Below are positions 12,187 to 20,915 of a DNA stretch of 64,000 bases, in pieces; positions within the stretch are counted from its first letter, which is position 1, and every line of letters begins with the position of its first letter. The notes beneath the pieces were generated by a model, which had not been told where the DNA came from, searched no databases, and saw nothing but the letters and a program-made list of their open reading frames with translations. The DNA lies in the NCBI RefSeq assembly GCF_002795825.1, contig NZ_CP018800.1, positions 62,001 through 126,000 of the forward strand, given 5' to 3'. The position numbers were made by a program, and so were the translations under genes. This DNA is from Mariprofundus ferrinatatus. Its GTDB lineage: Bacteria; Pseudomonadota; Zetaproteobacteria; Mariprofundales; Mariprofundaceae.

Positions 12187-13622
12187 ATTCAAAAAATCTG
12201 TTGATGATGGCATCTGTTTTGATAGCGGGCCTCACTATTGGATATCTGTTGCCTGATCATGCGACGAGCAGCAACGAGGAGCGGGTTGACCGTGATGATG
12301 GCCCCTGCCCTGGCGGGGGAGAACCCCTTGCCTGGCGAAACCCGATGAACCCAGCCGTCACTTCTCCGGTTTTCACCCGCGATGAGATGGGTATGGACTA
12401 CCTGCCGGTCTGTGCTGACGGGGTAAGCCGTCCCGGGGGCGCCGGGAGTGTAACCATAGATCCGACCATGGCTCAGAACATCGGCGTGCGTACTGTGGTT
12501 GCCGAGCAGAAAACCATCTCCCGGGATATACGTACTGTCGGTCGCGTCACCATGGATGAGCAGCGGGTGGCGCGTTTGCATCCCAAGGTCGAGGGCTGGG
12601 TGGAAAAGCTGTTTATCGACAGAACCGGTGAACAGGTAGGCAAAAACACGATGCTACTGGCGATCTATTCACCACAGCTTGTGGCAAGTGGCGAGGAGTA
12701 CCTGCTGGCGCTGAGAAACTGGCAGAAACTCAAAAACAGTCCGTTTACCGATATCAGGGAGGGCGCAAAACGGCTGCTTTCCACCTCGCTGGAGCGCTTG
12801 AAGCTGCTGGACGTGCCTGAACATCAGTTAAAAGAGATCCGTACAACAGGGCGCGTACCTAAAGCACTGCATATTCATTCACCCTTTGATGGCATCGTCA
12901 TGAATATCGGTGTCCGTGAAGGTCAACGCATCACGCCGGAAACAGAGCTGTATATGGTCGCCGATCTCACGCGTGTATGGGTGCAGGTGGATGTGTATGA
13001 AGATGAACTGCCCTGGGTTCGTCTCGGCGATGAGGCCGAGATGCGCCTGTCGGCAGCGCCCGGCCGCGTATTCAAAGGCAAACTGAGTTACATCTACCCT
13101 TATCTGGATGGCAAAACCCGCACCAACAAGGTACGTATTGAGTTCGCCAATCCTGATCTGGCGCTAAAGCCTGAGATGTTTGCCAACGTTACACTCAAGC
13201 CATCGCGCACAGTGAATGCCGTAGTGGTTCCGTCTGAAGCAATCGTGCGCACTGGAATGCGGAATCAGGTGTTCGTACAGCGATCAGAAGGAAGGTTTGA
13301 ACCACGAATCGTGGAGCTTGGGCTGCAGTCGGACGGGGGAGTGCAGATTCTCTCGGGCATCAAAGAGGGCGAAGCAGTCGTGACCAGCAGCCAGTTTCTT
13401 ATCGACTCGGAGTCCAAGCTGAAAGAGGCCACTGCCAAGATGCTCTCGATCGGAGCCTCCTCCTCTGACTCCCAGGTTGAGGCTGTGCCTGAGGCAAGCA
13501 TGGATGGGGGCCATCAACATATGATTCACAGCCATTCGCCTGACGAGAAGCCCGAAGCTGGTGCGCATGCGCCGGCCGAAGGGCATATGCAGATGCATCA
13601 TCAGACGGGTGAGATGCCATGA
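12183..13622 (+). CDS. cusB: RND heavy-metal efflux adaptor, CusB-like, with metal-binding ends
   Basis: A 479-residue periplasmic membrane-fusion protein. Residues 1-22 form a signal/anchor helix. Residues about 42-78 carry a heavy-metal-binding domain resembling YHS/HMBD modules (Cys, NPMNP, DEMGMDYLPVC). The HlyD-type core with lipoyl, hairpin and beta-barrel parts follows (HSPFDGIVMNIGVREGQ near 238). The last 40 residues are low in complexity and packed with His and Met (HQHMIHSHS, HMQMHHQ), a probable metal-binding tail. It links CusC to CusA. The stop overlaps the cusA start (ATGA). Confidence 0.9.
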   Translation: MNSKNLLMMASVLIAGLTIGYLLPDHATSSNEERVDRDDGPCPGGGEPLAWRNPMNPAVTSPVFTRDEMGMDYLPVCADGVSRPGGAGSVTIDPTMAQNIGVRTVVAEQKTISRDIRTVGRVTMDEQRVARLHPKVEGWVEKLFIDRTGEQVGKNTMLLAIYSPQLVASGEEYLLALRNWQKLKNSPFTDIREGAKRLLSTSLERLKLLDVPEHQLKEIRTTGRVPKALHIHSPFDGIVMNIGVREGQRITPETELYMVADLTRVWVQVDVYEDELPWVRLGDEAEMRLSAAPGRVFKGKLSYIYPYLDGKTRTNKVRIEFANPDLALKPEMFANVTLKPSRTVNAVVVPSEAIVRTGMRNQVFVQRSEGRFEPRIVELGLQSDGGVQILSGIKEGEAVVTSSQFLIDSESKLKEATAKMLSIGASSSDSQVEAVPEASMDGGHQHMIHSHSPDEKPEAGAHAPAEGHMQMHHQTGEMP

Positions 13623-16600
13623 TCCGCAAGTGCATTGAAGCATCAATCCGTAACCGCTTCCTGGTGTTGGCCGTTACCGTCATCGTAGCAGTGGCTGGCA
13701 TACAGGCGATGCGCGCAACCCCTTTGGATGCCATCCCGGATCTTTCCGATGTGCAGGTGATTGTCTTTACCGATTACGCCGGTCAGGCACCGCAGGTGGT
13801 AGAGGATCAGGTCACCTATCCGCTGACCACGGCCATGCTCTCGGTGCCCAATACCAAGGTGGTGCGCGGTTATTCGTTCTTCGGATTTTCGATGGTGTAC
13901 GTGATTTTCGAGGATAACACAGACATGTACTGGGCGCGTGCGCGTGTGCTGGAAAATCTGAATTTTTCCCGTGACAGACTGCCACCATCTGTCTCTCCGC
14001 GATTAGGGCCGGATGCCACAGGTGTCGGCTGGATCTATGAGTATGCACTGGTCGATAGAAGCGGCCATCTCGACCTGGCGCAATTGCGTTCGCTGCAAGA
14101 CTGGTACATGCGCTACCCGCTGCAGACCGTTGAGGGTGTGGCCGAAGTCGCTTCGATAGGAGGCTTTGTAAAACAGTATCAGGTAGAGGTTGATCCTGAT
14201 GCGCTGGCTGCCTTCAATATTCCTCTCTCCAGGGTGAAACAGGCGATTGCCCGCAGCAATAATGATGTTGGCGGTCGTCTGATAGAGATGGGGGAAACCG
14301 AGTACATGGTGCGCGGTCTGGGTTATATCCGCTCGATCGCCGATCTTGAAATTACGCCGATTGGGGTGGATGAACACGGAACGGCGATTTTTCTCCGGCA
14401 GGTGGCGAATATTCACCTGGGCCCGGAACTAAGGCGTGGTGCTGCAGATCTCAACGGTGAGGGTGAAGTTGCCGGTGGCGTCGTGGTGATGCGATATGGT
14501 GAAAATGCAAAGGCCACCATAGAAAAAGTGCGTCTCAAACTCGATGAGCTTGCCAAAGGTCTGCCCGAAGGTGTGGAGATTGTGCCGGTGTATGATCGCG
14601 GTGCATTGATCGAACGCGCCGTGGACAACCTGAGCGAGAAACTGATTGAGGAGTCCATCGTCGTGGCGCTGGTTTGCCTGCTCTTTCTTATGCATGCACG
14701 CAGTGCGCTTGTGGCGATTGTCTCGTTGCCTGTCGGTATCCTGATGGCCTTTCTGATGATGCAGTGGCAGGGGATTTCAGCCAACATCATGAGCCTTGGC
14801 GGCATCGCGATTGCCATAGGTGCCATGATTGATGGTGCGATCGTGATGATTGAAAATGCCCACAGACATCTGGAGCGGGCAGGTGAAGATATTTCCGCAT
14901 CTGCACGATGGGGTGCCGTGCTGGCATCTACCAAAGAGGTCGGGCCGGCACTGTTTTTTTCACTGTTGATTATCACCGTTTCGTTTCTGCCGGTGTTTAC
15001 ACTTCAGGCTCAGGAGGGGCGCCTTTTTTCGCCGCTCGCCTTTACCAAAACCTACGCCATGGGCGCAGCCGCACTGTTGGCGGTGACACTTGTACCGGTT
15101 CTGATGGGGTTGTTTATTCGTGGGCGCATCCCTGCTGAAGCGCGCAACCCGCTGAACAGATTGCTTCAGAAGATGCATACACCACTGTTGGATCTGGCTG
15201 TGTCTGCCCGGTCTCTGACTGTTGTGCTGGCACTTCTGCTGCTGGCAGTGACTGCATACCCGGTGATGAAGATCGGTTCTGAGTTTATGCCGCCGCTGGA
15301 TGAGGGCGATATCCTCTACATGCCGACCACCTTCCCAGGCATTTCGATCACCAAGGCACGGGAGCTGCTTCAGCAGACCGACCGTATTCTGAAAACCTTC
15401 CCTGAGGTCGAATCGGTATTCGGAAAGGTTGGGCGTGCGGAAACGGCGACCGATCCTGCGCCTTTGTCGATGCTGGAAACGACAATCCGACTGAAGCCGA
15501 AAGAGGCCTGGCCCGATCCTGATAAAACCACACGGCAGCTGATGGGGGAGATGGATGCCGCGACTCAACTCCCCGGGCTCGCCAATGCCTGGACTTATCC
15601 GGTCAAGACACGAATTGATATGCTCTCAACCGGAATCAAAACACCGATTGGCATCAAGGTATCCGGCGCGGATCTCGAAACGCTTGAAAGGGTCGCCGGC
15701 AATATTGAACAGGTATTGAAAAGGCATCCTGACACCCTGTCTGCTTTTGCCGATAAGGCCGCTGGCGGCTACTACCTCGATTTCAATATCAGGCGTGATG
15801 AGGCAGCTCGTTACGGCCTCACTGTTGGTGATGTGCAGGATGTCATCTCCAGTGCCATTGGTGGAATGAATGTAACAACAACCATTGAAGGGCTGGAGCG
15901 CTATCCGGTTAATGTGCGCTACCCGCGTGAATTGCGGGATAACCTGCAGTCGCTCAAGCGTGTTCTGGTGCCAACGCCTACAGGTGCACAGGTTCCTCTT
16001 TCGCTTGTTGCCGATCTGCAGCTCGGGCGTGGTCCACCATCGATCAAAACAGAGAATGCGCGTCCGAATGCCTGGGTTTATGTCGACATTAAAACCAGCG
16101 ATATCGGTGGTTTTGTGCAGGAAGCCAAACAGATGGTGAATGAGCAGGTGAAGGTTCCTGTCGGTTACACCATCAGTTGGTCCGGCCAGTTTGAATACAT
16201 GGAGCGGGCTGCTGCCAGACTGCAGATCGTGGTTCCGGCAACAGTTGTAATTATCTTCCTGCTGCTCTGGCTTAACTTTCGCAACCTCCTGGCGCCTGTG
16301 GTGGTGATGCTGTCCATTCCCTTCGCATTAATCGGAGGCTTCTGGCTGGTCTGGTGGCTGGGATATAACCTCTCGGTTGCCGTGGCCGTGGGTTTTATCG
16401 CGCTGGCTGGCGTCGCCGCTGAGATCGGCGTACTGGTGCTTACATTTATTGATCACGCCATAGATTCACGGCGGTCAGAAACGGGTGCTCCGCTGAACCA
16501 GAAGGCGCTTTGGCAGGCTGTGCAGGAAGGTGTTGGAAAGCGCGTACGCCCGATTGCCATGACTGCTACAGCCGTGATTGCAGCTCTGTTGCCGATCATG

Positions 16601-16762
16601 TGGGGTGCTGGCAGCGGATCCGATGTGATGCAGCGCATCGCCGCTCCGATGATTGGTGGCATGGTCACTACGACCCTTCTTTGCCTGGTTGTGCTACCGG
16701 TGGTTTATGGTCTGCTGCTACAGTGGCAGGATAGGGCCTCCATTGATCCGGATGACAGATAG
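13619..16762 (+). CDS. cusA: RND heavy-metal efflux transporter, CusA/CzcA family
   Basis: A 1047-residue proton-driven RND pump with twelve membrane helices and two large periplasmic loops. The signature around GAMIDGAIVMIENAHRHLE near residue 405 (with the proton-relay Asp) identifies the heavy-metal-efflux subfamily, as does RATPLDAIPDLSDVQVIV near the N-terminus. It pumps metal ions from periplasm or cytoplasm through the CusB/CusC conduit. The Met-rich partners and DUF411 neighbour favour Cu(I)/Ag(I) over Co/Zn/Cd, but the metal is inferred. Confidence 0.94.
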   Translation: MIRKCIEASIRNRFLVLAVTVIVAVAGIQAMRATPLDAIPDLSDVQVIVFTDYAGQAPQVVEDQVTYPLTTAMLSVPNTKVVRGYSFFGFSMVYVIFEDNTDMYWARARVLENLNFSRDRLPPSVSPRLGPDATGVGWIYEYALVDRSGHLDLAQLRSLQDWYMRYPLQTVEGVAEVASIGGFVKQYQVEVDPDALAAFNIPLSRVKQAIARSNNDVGGRLIEMGETEYMVRGLGYIRSIADLEITPIGVDEHGTAIFLRQVANIHLGPELRRGAADLNGEGEVAGGVVVMRYGENAKATIEKVRLKLDELAKGLPEGVEIVPVYDRGALIERAVDNLSEKLIEESIVVALVCLLFLMHARSALVAIVSLPVGILMAFLMMQWQGISANIMSLGGIAIAIGAMIDGAIVMIENAHRHLERAGEDISASARWGAVLASTKEVGPALFFSLLIITVSFLPVFTLQAQEGRLFSPLAFTKTYAMGAAALLAVTLVPVLMGLFIRGRIPAEARNPLNRLLQKMHTPLLDLAVSARSLTVVLALLLLAVTAYPVMKIGSEFMPPLDEGDILYMPTTFPGISITKARELLQQTDRILKTFPEVESVFGKVGRAETATDPAPLSMLETTIRLKPKEAWPDPDKTTRQLMGEMDAATQLPGLANAWTYPVKTRIDMLSTGIKTPIGIKVSGADLETLERVAGNIEQVLKRHPDTLSAFADKAAGGYYLDFNIRRDEAARYGLTVGDVQDVISSAIGGMNVTTTIEGLERYPVNVRYPRELRDNLQSLKRVLVPTPTGAQVPLSLVADLQLGRGPPSIKTENARPNAWVYVDIKTSDIGGFVQEAKQMVNEQVKVPVGYTISWSGQFEYMERAAARLQIVVPATVVIIFLLLWLNFRNLLAPVVVMLSIPFALIGGFWLVWWLGYNLSVAVAVGFIALAGVAAEIGVLVLTFIDHAIDSRRSETGAPLNQKALWQAVQEGVGKRVRPIAMTATAVIAALLPIMWGAGSGSDVMQRIAAPMIGGMVTTTLLCLVVLPVVYGLLLQWQDRASIDPDDR

Positions 16763-16783
16763 AGTCTGAGAAAAGGAGTTGTG

Positions 16784-17254
16784 ATGGTGTTAAATCGTAC
16801 ATATAAAAGCGTGAAGGGTCTGATGGTTGCGGCGATTGCAGTGCTGCTCATCTCCTGCAATGCGAGCGAAAAGGTCCTGGCTACCGAGGTGGTGATGTAC
16901 AAGGATCCCAATTGTGGCTGCTGCGGGGACTGGGCCAAACACCTTCGTAACGAAGGGTTTACTGTGATCGAGAAAAACTCTGATGATATGGCACAGGTTA
17001 AGCGCGATCATGGCATTTCCCCTCAACTGGCTTCCTGCCATACCGCTACAGTCGGCAGTTATGTCATCGAGGGTCATGTTCCGGCTGGGGATATTAAACG
17101 GCTCCTGAAAGAAAAGCCGGAAGTGGCTGGCCTTTCAGCTCCGGGTATGCCGCAGAAGTCTCCAGGCATGCAAGCGGAAGGGTTGCCTCCGGAGGGTTAT
17201 GATGTGTTGAGCTTTGATAAGAGCGGCAAGAGTGCTGTCTTCAGCCACTATTAG
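16784..17254 (+). CDS. DUF411 metal-binding lipoprotein
   Basis: A 156-residue DUF411 protein. The N-terminal hydrophobic segment ends in a lipobox-like LLISC (Cys25), so it is probably an outer- or inner-membrane lipoprotein facing the periplasm. The family motif YKDPNCGCCGDW (Cys44, 46, 47) and a conserved SCHT region are present; these cysteines are thought to bind copper. AAAAGGAG five bases before the ATG at 16784 sets the start; a GTG one codon earlier is too close. It follows cusA by 21 bases, so it belongs to the efflux operon and may deliver or buffer metal. Confidence 0.88.
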   Translation: MVLNRTYKSVKGLMVAAIAVLLISCNASEKVLATEVVMYKDPNCGCCGDWAKHLRNEGFTVIEKNSDDMAQVKRDHGISPQLASCHTATVGSYVIEGHVPAGDIKRLLKEKPEVAGLSAPGMPQKSPGMQAEGLPPEGYDVLSFDKSGKSAVFSHY

Positions 17255-17266
17255 GAGAAAATTGTA

Positions 17267-17842
17267 ATGATGAATCACAGGTTCCGGTTCAGGATGAATG
17301 GACTTTTACTTCTGGCAGTTATTCTGGGTCTCTCTGCCTGCAGCGAAGAAGCTGTGCCCACGGCCAAGAAGGGCGAGAGGCTGCCATCGTTTACGATGCA
17401 GTCGATCTCCGGCGAAATGGTGGAGAGCAGCAAGCTCTTTGCCGGCAAGGTGGTGGTGCTCAATCTATGGGCGACATGGTGTCCACCCTGTCGCGATGAG
17501 ATGCCGGATCTCGTCAAGCTTTCAAAGCTTCTTCCTTCGGATAAATTTATGGTGGCAGGCCTTTCTGTCGATAGCAGCCTAGATACGGTGAAGACGTTTG
17601 TGCAGGAGCAGCAGGTAACTTTTCCGATGTACTGGGATCAGGGAGGCAGCAGTATAGCGATGCCGATTTTCAGGTCGCGTGCGTTTCCGGAAACCTTCGT
17701 GCTCAATGCTGAAGGTGTAGTGGTAGAGATGGTGGCGGGTGCTTTTCCCTGGGGTTCACCTGAAGTTGTGGATATTCTTAATGTGATTCAGAAGACCGGA
17801 AAATTGCCGGCCCCTGAGCCTGTGGCTGTCAGCGCCGAATGA
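17267..17842 (+). CDS. TlpA/ResA-like thioredoxin-fold lipoprotein
   Basis: A 191-residue periplasmic thiol-disulfide protein. A lipobox LSAC ends at Cys25, so it is probably a lipoprotein. The active site WCPPC is at residues 71-75, followed by a typical TlpA/AhpC-TSA fold and a cis-proline region near FPETFVL. It could reduce cysteines of metal-binding partners or protect against copper-induced misoxidation; cytochrome c maturation is another common role. It sits 12 bases after the DUF411 gene with its own AGGAG, so it ends the efflux operon. It converges on the phosphatase gene downstream. Confidence 0.88.
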   Translation: MMNHRFRFRMNGLLLLAVILGLSACSEEAVPTAKKGERLPSFTMQSISGEMVESSKLFAGKVVVLNLWATWCPPCRDEMPDLVKLSKLLPSDKFMVAGLSVDSSLDTVKTFVQEQQVTFPMYWDQGGSSIAMPIFRSRAFPETFVLNAEGVVVEMVAGAFPWGSPEVVDILNVIQKTGKLPAPEPVAVSAE

Positions 17843-17849
17843 CCTGATT

Positions 17850-19130
17850 TCAGCGGCTGCGGCCAAGAATCAGCAGTGTAATATCGTCACTCTGTGCCGC
17901 CCCTTCTGTATAGGCGCGAATGCGCTCGATCAGAAAACTCATGCAGGACTCTGCTGTGTCAGGGCACTCATTCAGCCAGGCCAGCAGTCTTCCTTCACCC
18001 AGCATGATGTGGTGTTCATTGCGTGCTTCGGTGATGCCATCGGTGTAGAGAAGTACCATCTCACCGGGCTCCAGTGTTAATCGGTCAACGTCATAACTGG
18101 CATCGAGGATGATGCCGGCCGGTGGCCCTGACGCCTCATTGTGTTGCCAGATACGCTGGCTGAGAATGTGGACCGGTGGAAGGTGTCCGGCATTGGCGAT
18201 CTCAATAACACCTGTTTCCGGATCGAGAAGCATCAGAATAAGGCTAACAAACATGCCGTTCTTCGCCTTATTGCAGAGGGTGATGTTTAAACGATTCAGA
18301 ATCTCTGCAGCCGTACCGCCATGGGTCAACTCCATGCGGATATCACTGAGCACTGTGGACATGATCATCGCCGCGGATACGCCTTTGCCGGAGATGTCCC
18401 CGATCAGGTAGGCCATGCGGCCGTCCGGGAGCTGCGCGGCATCGTAGAAGTCCCCGCCCACCTCAAACGCGGTGCTCATGTGAAATGCAACCTGATAGCC
18501 ATCCACCTCGGGCGGCTCTCCTGGCAGAAATGACTCCTGAATCGATTTGGCAAGTTCAAGATCGTGTTGCAGCAGTTGCTGTTGCACCACCCGCTCGTGT
18601 GTGCGGGCGTTGTCGATGGCCACTGCAACCATCTGCACCAGTGACTCCATCAGCTGCTCATCATCATCGGAAAAATCGCCGCCGGTGCGGTTGATTACCT
18701 GGCTGACGCCAATCAGCTTGCCGTGCGCGATAAGCGGAGAGCAGATCATGTTGCGGGTGGTAAAACCCGTTTCCCGGTCGAATTCAGCGTTGAAGCGAGG
18801 GTCAGTATAGACATCGGCAAGCCGCTGCGTCTGCAGATTTTCAGCGACCCATCCGGCAATGCCGCTTCCTCTGGGCAGGCGGCAGATCTCCCTGAGCTGA
18901 TCCTCTTTTTCACCGGAACAGGCGTGGAAAACCAGCTCACCGCTCTGCTCATCATAGAGGAAGAGTGAGCAGCTCTCCGCCTGCATCAGGGACTGGGTTA
19001 TCTCCATGATCTGTTTGAGCAGGGGGCCGAGTTTTAGCTCGCCGGCAATCAGTTGATTGATCTTCAGCGCAGTCCTGAGGCGGTCATTGTCCCGCCGGAG
19101 ATGTTCGATTTTCTCGCTTTCGCTGTTCAA
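17850..19130 (-). CDS. GAF-domain PP2C/SpoIIE serine phosphatase
   Basis: A 426-residue cytoplasmic signalling protein: a short helical N-terminus, a GAF domain at about residues 33-175, a linker coiled coil, then a SpoIIE/RsbU-type PP2C domain from about 205 to the end. The metal-binding Asp motifs are visible in GDISGKGVSAAM and LLYTDGITEA. Such proteins dephosphorylate anti-anti-sigma factors in partner-switching pathways. No RsbV/RsbW partner lies in this window. The start is TTG preceded by an AGGAAGGGG ribosome site. A 12-base perfect palindrome containing TATAAT (19147-19158) lies just upstream and may be the promoter. Confidence 0.87.
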   Translation of the reverse strand: MNSESEKIEHLRRDNDRLRTALKINQLIAGELKLGPLLKQIMEITQSLMQAESCSLFLYDEQSGELVFHACSGEKEDQLREICRLPRGSGIAGWVAENLQTQRLADVYTDPRFNAEFDRETGFTTRNMICSPLIAHGKLIGVSQVINRTGGDFSDDDEQLMESLVQMVAVAIDNARTHERVVQQQLLQHDLELAKSIQESFLPGEPPEVDGYQVAFHMSTAFEVGGDFYDAAQLPDGRMAYLIGDISGKGVSAAMIMSTVLSDIRMELTHGGTAAEILNRLNITLCNKAKNGMFVSLILMLLDPETGVIEIANAGHLPPVHILSQRIWQHNEASGPPAGIILDASYDVDRLTLEPGEMVLLYTDGITEARNEHHIMLGEGRLLAWLNECPDTAESCMSFLIERIRAYTEGAAQSDDITLLILGRSR

Positions 19131-19196: not shown

Positions 19197-19652
19197 CTAT
19201 TGCTCACGCTTGGGCCGGCGAACTGCCTTAACGCGGGCAGGGGTCACAGCGCCATTGCAATGGCCGCAGGTGAGCCTTGCATCAAGCGTTTCTCCGCACT
19301 CCAGATGCACCAGTTCAGTTGTCGTTTCACCTTCGCTGAACAGCCAGCGGTTGCTCCAGCGTTGCATGGATACCAGAACAGGAAAGAGGTCGCGCCCCTT
19401 GATGGTGAGGCGGTATTCATGGCGGAGAGGGCGTTCCTGATAGGGGGTGCGAATCAGCAGTTCCGACTCGACAAGCCGGGCCAGCCGTTGGGATAGTATC
19501 TTCTTGGATATTCCAAGGCTCTTCTGCAGCGCATCAAAACGCCTGACACCGTTAAACAGATCGCGTAGTATGAGAATGGTCCAGCGATCGCCTATAATGT
19601 CCGAAAGGCGACCGATAGGGCATGATGATGGAGAGGGCGTGGCGGCTTCCAT
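19197..19652 (-). CDS. HxlR-family transcriptional regulator
   Basis: A 151-residue winged-helix regulator. The family start SSCPIGRLSDIIGDRWTILI carries the conserved N-terminal cysteine (Cys11) that senses oxidants or electrophiles in several HxlR proteins. The recognition part LGISKKILSQRLARL follows. Unusually, a C-terminal extension holds three cysteines in a zinc-ribbon-like pattern (ECGETLDARLTCGHC) and a basic tail. The ATG at 19652 gives the usual family N-terminus; the frame opens 22 codons further upstream. It is divergent from the thioesterase and isomerase genes, with an array of palindromic sites between them, so autoregulation and control of those genes are likely. Confidence 0.88.
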   Translation of the reverse strand: MEAATPSPSSCPIGRLSDIIGDRWTILILRDLFNGVRRFDALQKSLGISKKILSQRLARLVESELLIRTPYQERPLRHEYRLTIKGRDLFPVLVSMQRWSNRWLFSEGETTTELVHLECGETLDARLTCGHCNGAVTPARVKAVRRPKREQ

Positions 19653-19678
19653 GCCTGTACTATAGCAGGTCGCTAAAG

Positions 19679-19788
19679 GAAACCTACTAAATGGTGATTG
19701 GTTTCTATTTGAAACCAACTTATTTATAGGTATCTATTAGAAACCTACAGGTCATTGTTAGTCTCCTATCGAAACCATTATTGGTTTC
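19679..19788. promoter_or_regulatory. Array of GGTTTC/GAAACC operator-like dyads
   Basis: GAAACC half-sites start at 19679, 19711, 19740 and 19771, spaced 32, 29 and 31 bases, close to three helical turns. Three have a matching left arm five bases away: 19698-19718 is a perfect 8+5+8 palindrome (TTGGTTTC, GAAACCAA), 19727-19747 has one mismatch, and 19758-19778 is weaker. A further GGTTTC at 19783 inverts the last site. Position between a divergent HxlR gene and its neighbours makes these the natural HxlR operators. Confidence 0.75.
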
Positions 19789-19813: not shown

Positions 19814-20320
19814 TTGCGTCGAAGTAACCTGCATCTGCTGGCCAGGCTCCGCTTCCTCTCTTCTCGCAGGCGGTTCGAGCTATTTCCCCCCTTTTTCCTG
19901 ATGCGTGTAAAGATTGAACATCTGTCAGAGGATTGGAGCAGTGTGCGCATCCGCTTGCCGCTCAACTGGGTATCAGCCAATGCTGCCGGTAATATGTTTG
20001 GCGGTTATCAGGCCAGCCTTGCCGATCCGGTGCCGGCACTGGCATGTCTGAAAAGGTTTCCGGGTTACAGGGTGGCCACCAAAAAGCTGGAGATCGATTT
20101 TGTTCGGGTAGGTAATTCTGATCTGACGTTGCATTTCGATTTTGATGATGGGCAGTTCCGGGAGATAGCGAGGGAGTTGCAGGAGAGCGGCCGGGCGACC
20201 CCAGGCTTTGAGATGCGGTTTGTAAGGGAGGATGGCAAGGTGTGTACACGCATTCTCAATACCGTTGCCATTCGTCCGAAGGGTTATGTGGCTCCAATCG
20301 AGCATCACGATGACAACTAG
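19814..20320 (+). CDS. DUF4442 hotdog-fold thioesterase-like protein
   Basis: A 168-residue protein with the DUF4442 signature NAAGNMFGGYQASLADPVPALAC, a hotdog fold related to acyl-CoA thioesterases. The likely start is the TTG at 19814, six bases after AGGAGGA; the frame also opens at a TTG at 19781 that has no ribosome site and lies inside the operator array. The substrate is unknown. It overlaps the next gene by 11 bases, so both are co-translated, and both are probably controlled by the divergent HxlR regulator. Confidence 0.78.
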   Translation: MRRSNLHLLARLRFLSSRRRFELFPPFFLMRVKIEHLSEDWSSVRIRLPLNWVSANAAGNMFGGYQASLADPVPALACLKRFPGYRVATKKLEIDFVRVGNSDLTLHFDFDDGQFREIARELQESGRATPGFEMRFVREDGKVCTRILNTVAIRPKGYVAPIEHHDDN

Positions 20321-20915
20321 AAAGATCGATTTCTACTTCGATTTTATCAGCCCCTATAGCTATCTGGCGGCTACGCAGATGCCTGCATTTGCTGCAGAGC
20401 ATGGGGTGGAGGCTGACTGGCTGCCGCTTAACCTGCCGCGGCTGATGAAGCTCTCCGGCAATACGTCTCCTGCAGCAGTGAAAAACAAGGCGATCTACTC
20501 ACTTCGGGATTTGAAACGTTGGAGCCTATTCCTGAATGTGCCGTTCCGGATGATCCGGCCGGGAACATTCGATAGCCGACCTGCACTTCGGATTGCTGGG
20601 GCACTGCAGGGGGATGAGCGTAAGACCTTCTGCATGGATGTTTTTGATGCCCTCTGGTCTGGAGAGGTGGATGCAAAAAGATCGAACTGGCTGGAGGAGA
20701 TTGCAGAGAAGAGGTCATTTTCCGACGACTGGATGGGCCTTACCAGTGAAGAGTTCGAGGCAAACACGCATGCTGCATTGAATGCCGGAGCGTTTGGGGT
20801 TCCAAGCCTTGTGCTTCATGCCGATAAAGGGCGAGATGAATTGTTTTTCGGCGTTGATCATATGGCGTTGATATCCCGCGCGATAAGAGGCCAGGGAGAT
20901 ATAATATACAGATAA
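20310..20915 (+). CDS. 2-hydroxychromene-2-carboxylate isomerase / DsbA-family protein
   Basis: A 201-residue thioredoxin-fold protein of the HCCA isomerase (kappa-class GST-like) family: DFYFDFISPYSYLA at the N-terminus with a serine in place of the DsbA CxxC, an inserted helical domain, and GAFGVPSLVLHADKGRDELFFGVDHMALI near the C-terminus. Known members use glutathione to isomerise aromatic degradation intermediates. Here the substrate is unknown; linkage to an HxlR sensor and a thioesterase suggests detoxification of an electrophile or aromatic acid. Start ATG 20310 lies inside the preceding gene. Confidence 0.85.
   Translation: MTTRKIDFYFDFISPYSYLAATQMPAFAAEHGVEADWLPLNLPRLMKLSGNTSPAAVKNKAIYSLRDLKRWSLFLNVPFRMIRPGTFDSRPALRIAGALQGDERKTFCMDVFDALWSGEVDAKRSNWLEEIAEKRSFSDDWMGLTSEEFEANTHAALNAGAFGVPSLVLHADKGRDELFFGVDHMALISRAIRGQGDIIYR

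Follow-up and report, generated by a model that had tools for sequence, protein, structure and literature searches.

YodB, QsrR and HypR define a paradigm in which a repressor acts locally, also on its own gene, and is triggered through an N-terminal cysteine, and Bacillus subtilis HxlR has two tandem binding regions upstream of hxlAB. In two reports B. subtilis HxlR is described as a formaldehyde-triggered activator (PMC8879981, PMC7835342), and the latter describes a Cys11-Lys13 formaldehyde bridge and a dimer bound to a palindrome, the half-site of the crystallised DNA being GTATCC/GGATAC (PMC7835342). As this protein is an activator in those accounts, negative control cannot be taken for granted at the locus described here.

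The window, a 64-kb stretch of a 2.30-Mb genome in a single contig, encodes an HxlR-family regulator of 151 residues (19197..19652, minus strand). Its PF01638 winged-helix domain scores 92 bits (cut-off 20.8; E 2e-26), and the Foldseek matches of the structure model, which is of moderate quality (mean pLDDT 74, with residues 101-150 at 53-74 by block), include HypR, YodB, QsrR and HxlR. The protein shares its fold family and an N-terminal Cys11 with B. subtilis HxlR (PDB 7bzd/7bze/7bzg), whose half-site resembles the GGTATC form found in the array described below. In contrast, B. subtilis HxlR is an activator with Lys13, while the window protein reads C11-P12-I13-G14 and lacks the Cys11-Lys13 pair; the B. 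subtilis chain, at 123 residues, is also too short for the C-terminal tail of the window protein, H116-x2-C119-x9-C129-x2-C132. The fold is likewise that of the DUF24 electrophile and redox sensors YodB, QsrR and HypR (PDB 5hs7, 4hqe, 4a5n), from which the window family differs in its three to four sites, in the Asp that replaces Cys11 in two orthologues and in the long tail with its HCCC quartet. The closest solved structures by both sequence and fold are Pseudomonas aeruginosa PA1607 and PA1374 (PDB 2f2e, 4gcv), which have the C-terminal extension in common with it and carry Glu and Ser where the window protein has H116 and C119. A literature search, in a collection with few subscription journals and little on HxlR operators, showed no description of the array or its motif among the papers listed. 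The four palindromes upstream of the gene are very probably the operator of this regulator and the core of a local, autoregulated switch, for which the mechanism set out below would be the best explanation. As judged from sequence comparison, it appears to be a well-supported and fairly ordinary local gene switch of known type.

Four palindromic sites between HxlR and DUF4442

A 161-bp gap separates the leftward HxlR gene (19652-19197) from the rightward DUF4442 gene (likely start 19814). The gap contains four GGTTTC-N5-GAAACC-like 17-mers starting at 19668, 19700, 19729 and 19760, each comprising a left arm, a 5-base spacer and a right arm and scored by the number of arm bases matching out of 12 and, in bits, by a leave-one-out weight matrix. 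None is assigned to a strand. Site 1 (19668..19684, GGTCGC-N5-GAAACC) matches at 10/12 arm bases and scores 18.9 bits, and abuts the presumed extended -10 of HxlR. Site 2 (19700..19716) is a perfect GGTTTC-N5-GAAACC (12/12, 22.9 bits), site 3 (19729..19745, GGTATC-N5-GAAACC) reaches 11/12 and 22.6 bits, and site 4 (19760..19776, AGTCTC-N5-GAAACC), the closest to the DUF4442 gene, 10/12 and 14.6 bits. The initial annotation had placed right half-sites GAAACC at 19679, 19711, 19740 and 19771 with spacings of 32, 29 and 31 bp, and these values proved exact on recount; the perfect 21-base palindrome that it described lies at 19698-19718, where two perfect 8-base arms with 5 bases between them surround site 2. 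It had allotted a facing left arm to three of the sites; the arms do face, and all four sites have one, imperfect in three. The array proper spans 19668-19776 rather than 19679-19788, a span that had begun at the first right half-site and ended at an extra, outward-facing GGTTTC. This extra element (19783-19788), which forms GAAACC-N6-GGTTTC with site 4, is probably incidental, the orthologues having been read without a counterpart being noticed.

The exact motif has an expectation of 0.00 in the 64-kb window. At up to two mismatches the degenerate pattern, which was derived from the array's own sites, gives 10 matches in the window (the four sites on both strands and two elsewhere), against a mean of 0.99 and a largest value of 5 in shuffles. 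When the 161-bp gap was shuffled 20,000 times (first order), 114 of the shuffled sequences had one 10/12 match and none had two. Across the whole genome the pattern RGTHTCYWWWDGAAACY, at up to one mismatch, finds the four sites of the array and two isolated matches, each of which falls within a long open frame. The motif is not scattered through the genome at this stringency, random occurrence having been raised beforehand as a sign against the operator reading, and the array would therefore be a local operator with no second regulated locus at one mismatch; weaker single sites are possible. At three mismatches the scan becomes too loose for use, with 937 matches against 609 for the backward control. 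In most of 61 related genomes single matches are about as frequent as those of the backward pattern, so that only clusters are informative; the extra matches in one of them (G005) are scattered singletons.

The array accompanies HxlR in the DUF4442 family

Relatives of the DUF4442 protein were present in 30 of the 61 genomes, in 31 match rows, and 28 loci were compared; L145 (25% identity, other family), L146 (a fragment) and a second match in G004 without a locus were left out. An intact HxlR gene is divergent from DUF4442 in 10 of the 28. Three to four sites of at least 9.7 bits (leave-one-out matrix) are found in all ten, while none of the remaining 18, which lack it, has a site of at least 6 bits, their sole match above 5.5 bits being one of 5.9 bits in L122. 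A plain count at 9/12 arm matches or better gives at least two matches in 10/10 HxlR loci, against two in 0/18 and one in 3/18 of the others. Scored with the leave-one-out matrix, array presence tracks HxlR in 28/28 loci. Orthologues devoid of such repeats had been named beforehand as evidence against an operator; the array is found in all ten orthologues adjoining DUF4442. Against the operator reading, the two non-family members of the protein alignment (A1) have no match above 8/12. The arrays of all ten orthologues and the confinement of the motif to the locus at one mismatch strongly support the assignment of the array to the adjacent HxlR that the initial annotation had proposed. The assignment gives the regulator a probable operator, and the DUF4442 / HCCA-isomerase pair a testable candidate for its control.

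In G022 (L123/L023, G022:C30) only the C-terminal third of HxlR is left, roughly residues 98-147, at a distance of 6 nt from DUF4442, and the array is absent; this remnant may reflect a deletion or an assembly error. Within the 1.5 kb examined, a SpoIIE gene neighbours 8/10 HxlR loci and 0/18 of the others, and therefore most of the 18 appear to sit in another gene context. They would seem to show DUF4442 managing without the array, rather than loss of the array in place. Mapped on the DUF4442 tree, the presence of HxlR requires four changes, two of which follow necessarily from well-supported branches, and a topology that unites all loci with HxlR in one clade is rejected (p-AU 0.034). The independent contrasts between HxlR and array number only two (well-supported) to four, at which a sign test is powerless (p 0.5). 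The retention of the arms while the linkers drift is stronger evidence than a test on so few contrasts: in comparisons among L118, L119 and L120 the arms are identical at 107/144 positions (74%, a figure lowered by the last site of L119, which lies one base out of register), the spacers at 42/60 and the linkers at 60/126 (48%).

Related sites upstream of distant HxlR genes

The distant set comprised 80 kept loci of at least 586 relatives, from Actinobacteria, Gamma-, Alpha- and Betaproteobacteria and others. Within 300 bp upstream, RGTTYC-N5-GRAACY at up to two mismatches was found in 43 of these 80 (of at least 586) and was absent in 37; shuffles gave a mean of 7.3 and a maximum of 13, and the backward motif 4/80. 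Two or more matches occurred in 22 of the 80 kept loci (of at least 586), against a shuffle mean of 0.43, a maximum of 3 and a single locus for the backward motif. Of these 22, eleven have a pair of sites spaced by 21-30 bp, and the matches of two (L077 and L089) overlap. Paired palindromes sought independently of the motif (arms of 6, spacer of 5) were present in 29 of the 80 kept loci (of at least 586), against a shuffle mean of 12.3 and a maximum of 20; over eight arm and spacer settings with 30 shuffles each, six exceeded the shuffle maximum, two of these by one locus, and two equalled it. The motif scan is preferred because many of the pairs detected without the motif have a high GC content and do not resemble it. 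RGTTYC-N5-GRAACY is proposed as a binding code for HxlR proteins of several phyla.

Divergent neighbours of the distant HxlR genes were found in 49 cases, of which 42 were aligned and scanned against Pfam. They include seven matches to short-chain dehydrogenase, three to 4HBT and two to 4HBT_3 thioesterase models (the 4HBT sets may overlap) and three to M24 peptidase, and a DSBA-like gene lies near HxlR in eight of the 80 kept loci (of at least 586). These neighbours offer only hints of acyl-thioester and aromatic metabolism, a theme also suggested by the DUF4442 / HCCA-isomerase-like pair.

Spacing and helical phase of the sites

Neighbouring sites are 31 bp apart in most of the family, 33-34 bp in the clade L121/L124/L126, and 31 and then 21-22 bp in the sister loci L127 and L130. 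At 10.5 bp per turn the 24 family spacings (29-34 and 21-22 bp), which are not mutually independent, give a resultant of 0.81 at a mean angle of 4 degrees; a 101-bp gap to an 8.1-bit match inside HxlR in L127 is left out of this figure. One HxlR dimer would occupy each GGTTTC-N5-GAAACC site, and sites three helical turns apart, or two in one lineage, would allow neighbouring dimers to stack along a single face of the helix, which would make for a steep switch. Same-face binding, a claim already made in the initial annotation, is a fair inference for this DUF4442-linked family, and cooperativity between the dimers is plausible. It is not a rule of the wider group: 11 tandem spacings of 21-30 bp in the distant relatives are unphased (resultant 0.31), and spacings of 24 and 28-30 bp do not share the phase of 31 bp. 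That resultant leaves out spacings of 34, 55, 62 (two), 75, 77 (three), 198, 200 and 232 bp, together with the two overlapping matches 1 bp apart (L077, L089), which also belong to the 22 loci with two or more matches.

The same operator could also be filled by dimers that bind independently, a reading to which we give appreciable but less than even weight. The copies would then serve to cover two divergent promoters, with site 1 acting on HxlR, the last site on the operon and the middle sites on affinity, and the 31-bp spacing would be inherited rather than needed for stacking. Distant relatives that do with one site or with unphased pairs at 21-30 bp are consistent with it, as are the shift to 33-34 bp in one family clade and the fact that only one lineage (L127, L130) has dropped about one full turn (31 to 21-22 bp). 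It explains less readily why the family spacings fall near whole turns when the linkers of three relatives are only 48% identical, a pattern that argues for the stacked arrangement. A much broader reading, in which a cross-phylum HxlR subfamily with a metal-binding C-terminal tail and the code RGTTYC-N5-GRAACY forms phased multi-dimer assemblies on the three- to four-site arrays of this family, is switched through the tail and not the N-terminal Cys, and transcribes its own mRNA without a leader, is speculative and, taken as a whole, doubtful.

Promoter geometry and the sign of regulation

Site 1 lies exactly 15 nt from the presumed HxlR ATG in 10/10 orthologues, the HxlR start codons being the analyst's choice, with some frames open further upstream. 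The first three of these 15 nt are TGC in seven loci, CGC in two and TGA in one, and the next hexamer is TATAGT in four, TATATT in two and TATACT, TATGCT, TGTACT and TAGGCT in one each, followed by six bases and the ATG. This constant spacing suggests an extended -10, read in the window as TGCTATAGT on the minus strand (19659..19667), that touches site 1. A sigma-70 scan of the gap did not list the HxlR promoter among its matches. A transcript that starts at the usual distance from this -10 would begin at the A of the ATG, and in each of the ten family loci that carry HxlR (L117-L131; 19650-19667 in the window) the mRNA of this gene may therefore lack a leader; with such a start there is no room for a Shine-Dalgarno sequence. 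Of 18 distant loci inspected by eye, seven (L039, L045, L047, L055, L061, L074, L088) have an in-frame start codon at a distance of 19-25 nt from the closest site.

We infer that HxlR binds the sites directly and represses from them. A dimer at site 1 would cover the stretch just upstream of the HxlR -10 and block the gene's own, possibly leaderless, transcript, while dimers across sites 2-4 would block the start of the DUF4442 / HCCA-isomerase-like operon. The direction of operon control is less settled than the operator assignment. Silencing of both promoters, as first put forward, is plausible for HxlR, where site 1 abuts the -10-like hexamer; on the other side, neither the sigma-70 scan nor orthologue comparison identified a rightward promoter in the gap. 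That result would also suit a regulator that activates the DUF4442 operon from the array and represses itself at site 1, as would the placing of the sites, whose first bases lie 45 to 149 nt ahead of the DUF4442 start, and the activation of hxlAB by B. subtilis HxlR (PMC7835342, PMC8879981). We consider activation unlikely, however, given that in the four closest loci 28-39 nt separate the end of the last site from the DUF4442 start (34-71 nt in the remaining six), as is more usual where binding blocks transcription, and that the 18 family loci without an adjoining intact HxlR indicate that the gene does not require this regulator. It is very improbable that the repeats serve another regulator or a structural role with HxlR as a bystander. 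Such a reading could draw on the single intergenic stretch that HxlR and array share in the family, where gain or loss would be joint anyway, and on the site 2 hairpin, which a terminator scan reports. Against it, array and HxlR go together in every locus compared, and in other phyla related half-sites are found ahead of HxlR genes whose neighbours differ. The hairpin at 19698-19718 was rejected as a terminator, since 0.6 such hairpins are expected by chance in the scan.

Candidate sensor sites

The window protein has Cys11, as do 10/12 proteins of alignment A1 and all 80 kept distant relatives (of at least 586). This cysteine is replaced by Asp in the close orthologues L003 and L004, whose loci (L119 and L120) each keep four sites; this weakens the proposal that modification of Cys11 throws the switch, a step that is, like the direction of operon control, less settled than the operator itself. 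The two orthologues are natural variants in which to ask whether the N-terminal Cys senses. By contrast, H116, C119, C129 and C132 (coding positions 19257-19307) are invariant in 12/12 aligned proteins (A1), and the quartet is kept in 77 of the 80 kept distant relatives (of at least 586), with L078, L102 and L115 lacking all four residues together. Such loss as a block is expected of a metal site, and the H-x2-C-x9-C-x2-C motif, which the initial annotation did not mention, looks like a zinc site; it is a putative alternative sensor or a structural site. The three proteins that lack it nevertheless have paired operators, and the operator code can therefore do without the HCCC site. HxlR with a C-terminal HCCC (zinc-ribbon-like) tail is a grouping made in this analysis and not a named family. 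The inducer would probably be an electrophile, or an acyl or aromatic thioester-type substrate of the operon, that alters HxlR binding through Cys11 where present, through the C-terminal HCCC site, or through both.

Neighbouring genes

The names first given to the neighbours, HxlR, DUF4442 and DsbA fold, agree with the domain matches (PF01638, PF14539 and PF01323, respectively). The DUF4442 gene (19814..20320, plus strand), with a likely TTG start after AAGGAGG, encodes a hotdog-fold, thioesterase-like protein (PF14539, E 1e-7; its NCBIfam match lies below the cut-off) with a weak match to PDB 1sh8 (E 0.0007). The following gene (20310..20915, plus strand) encodes a DSBA-fold protein of the 2-hydroxychromene-2-carboxylate isomerase / kappa-GST type (PF01323, E 9e-27; PDB 2imd, E 8e-18). 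A search of viral contigs for close DUF4442 relatives found none, and a defence-system library gave zero matches. Downstream of HxlR and on the same strand lies a GAF-SpoIIE phosphatase gene (17850..19130, minus strand), a conserved neighbour with its own promoter-like match at 19177-19149 in the sigma-70 scan, whose conservation does not imply membership of the switch. Upstream, at 13619-17842, genes for an AcrB-type efflux pump, a DUF411 protein and a TlpA/ResA-like thioredoxin are clustered, which suggests a metal-resistance island.
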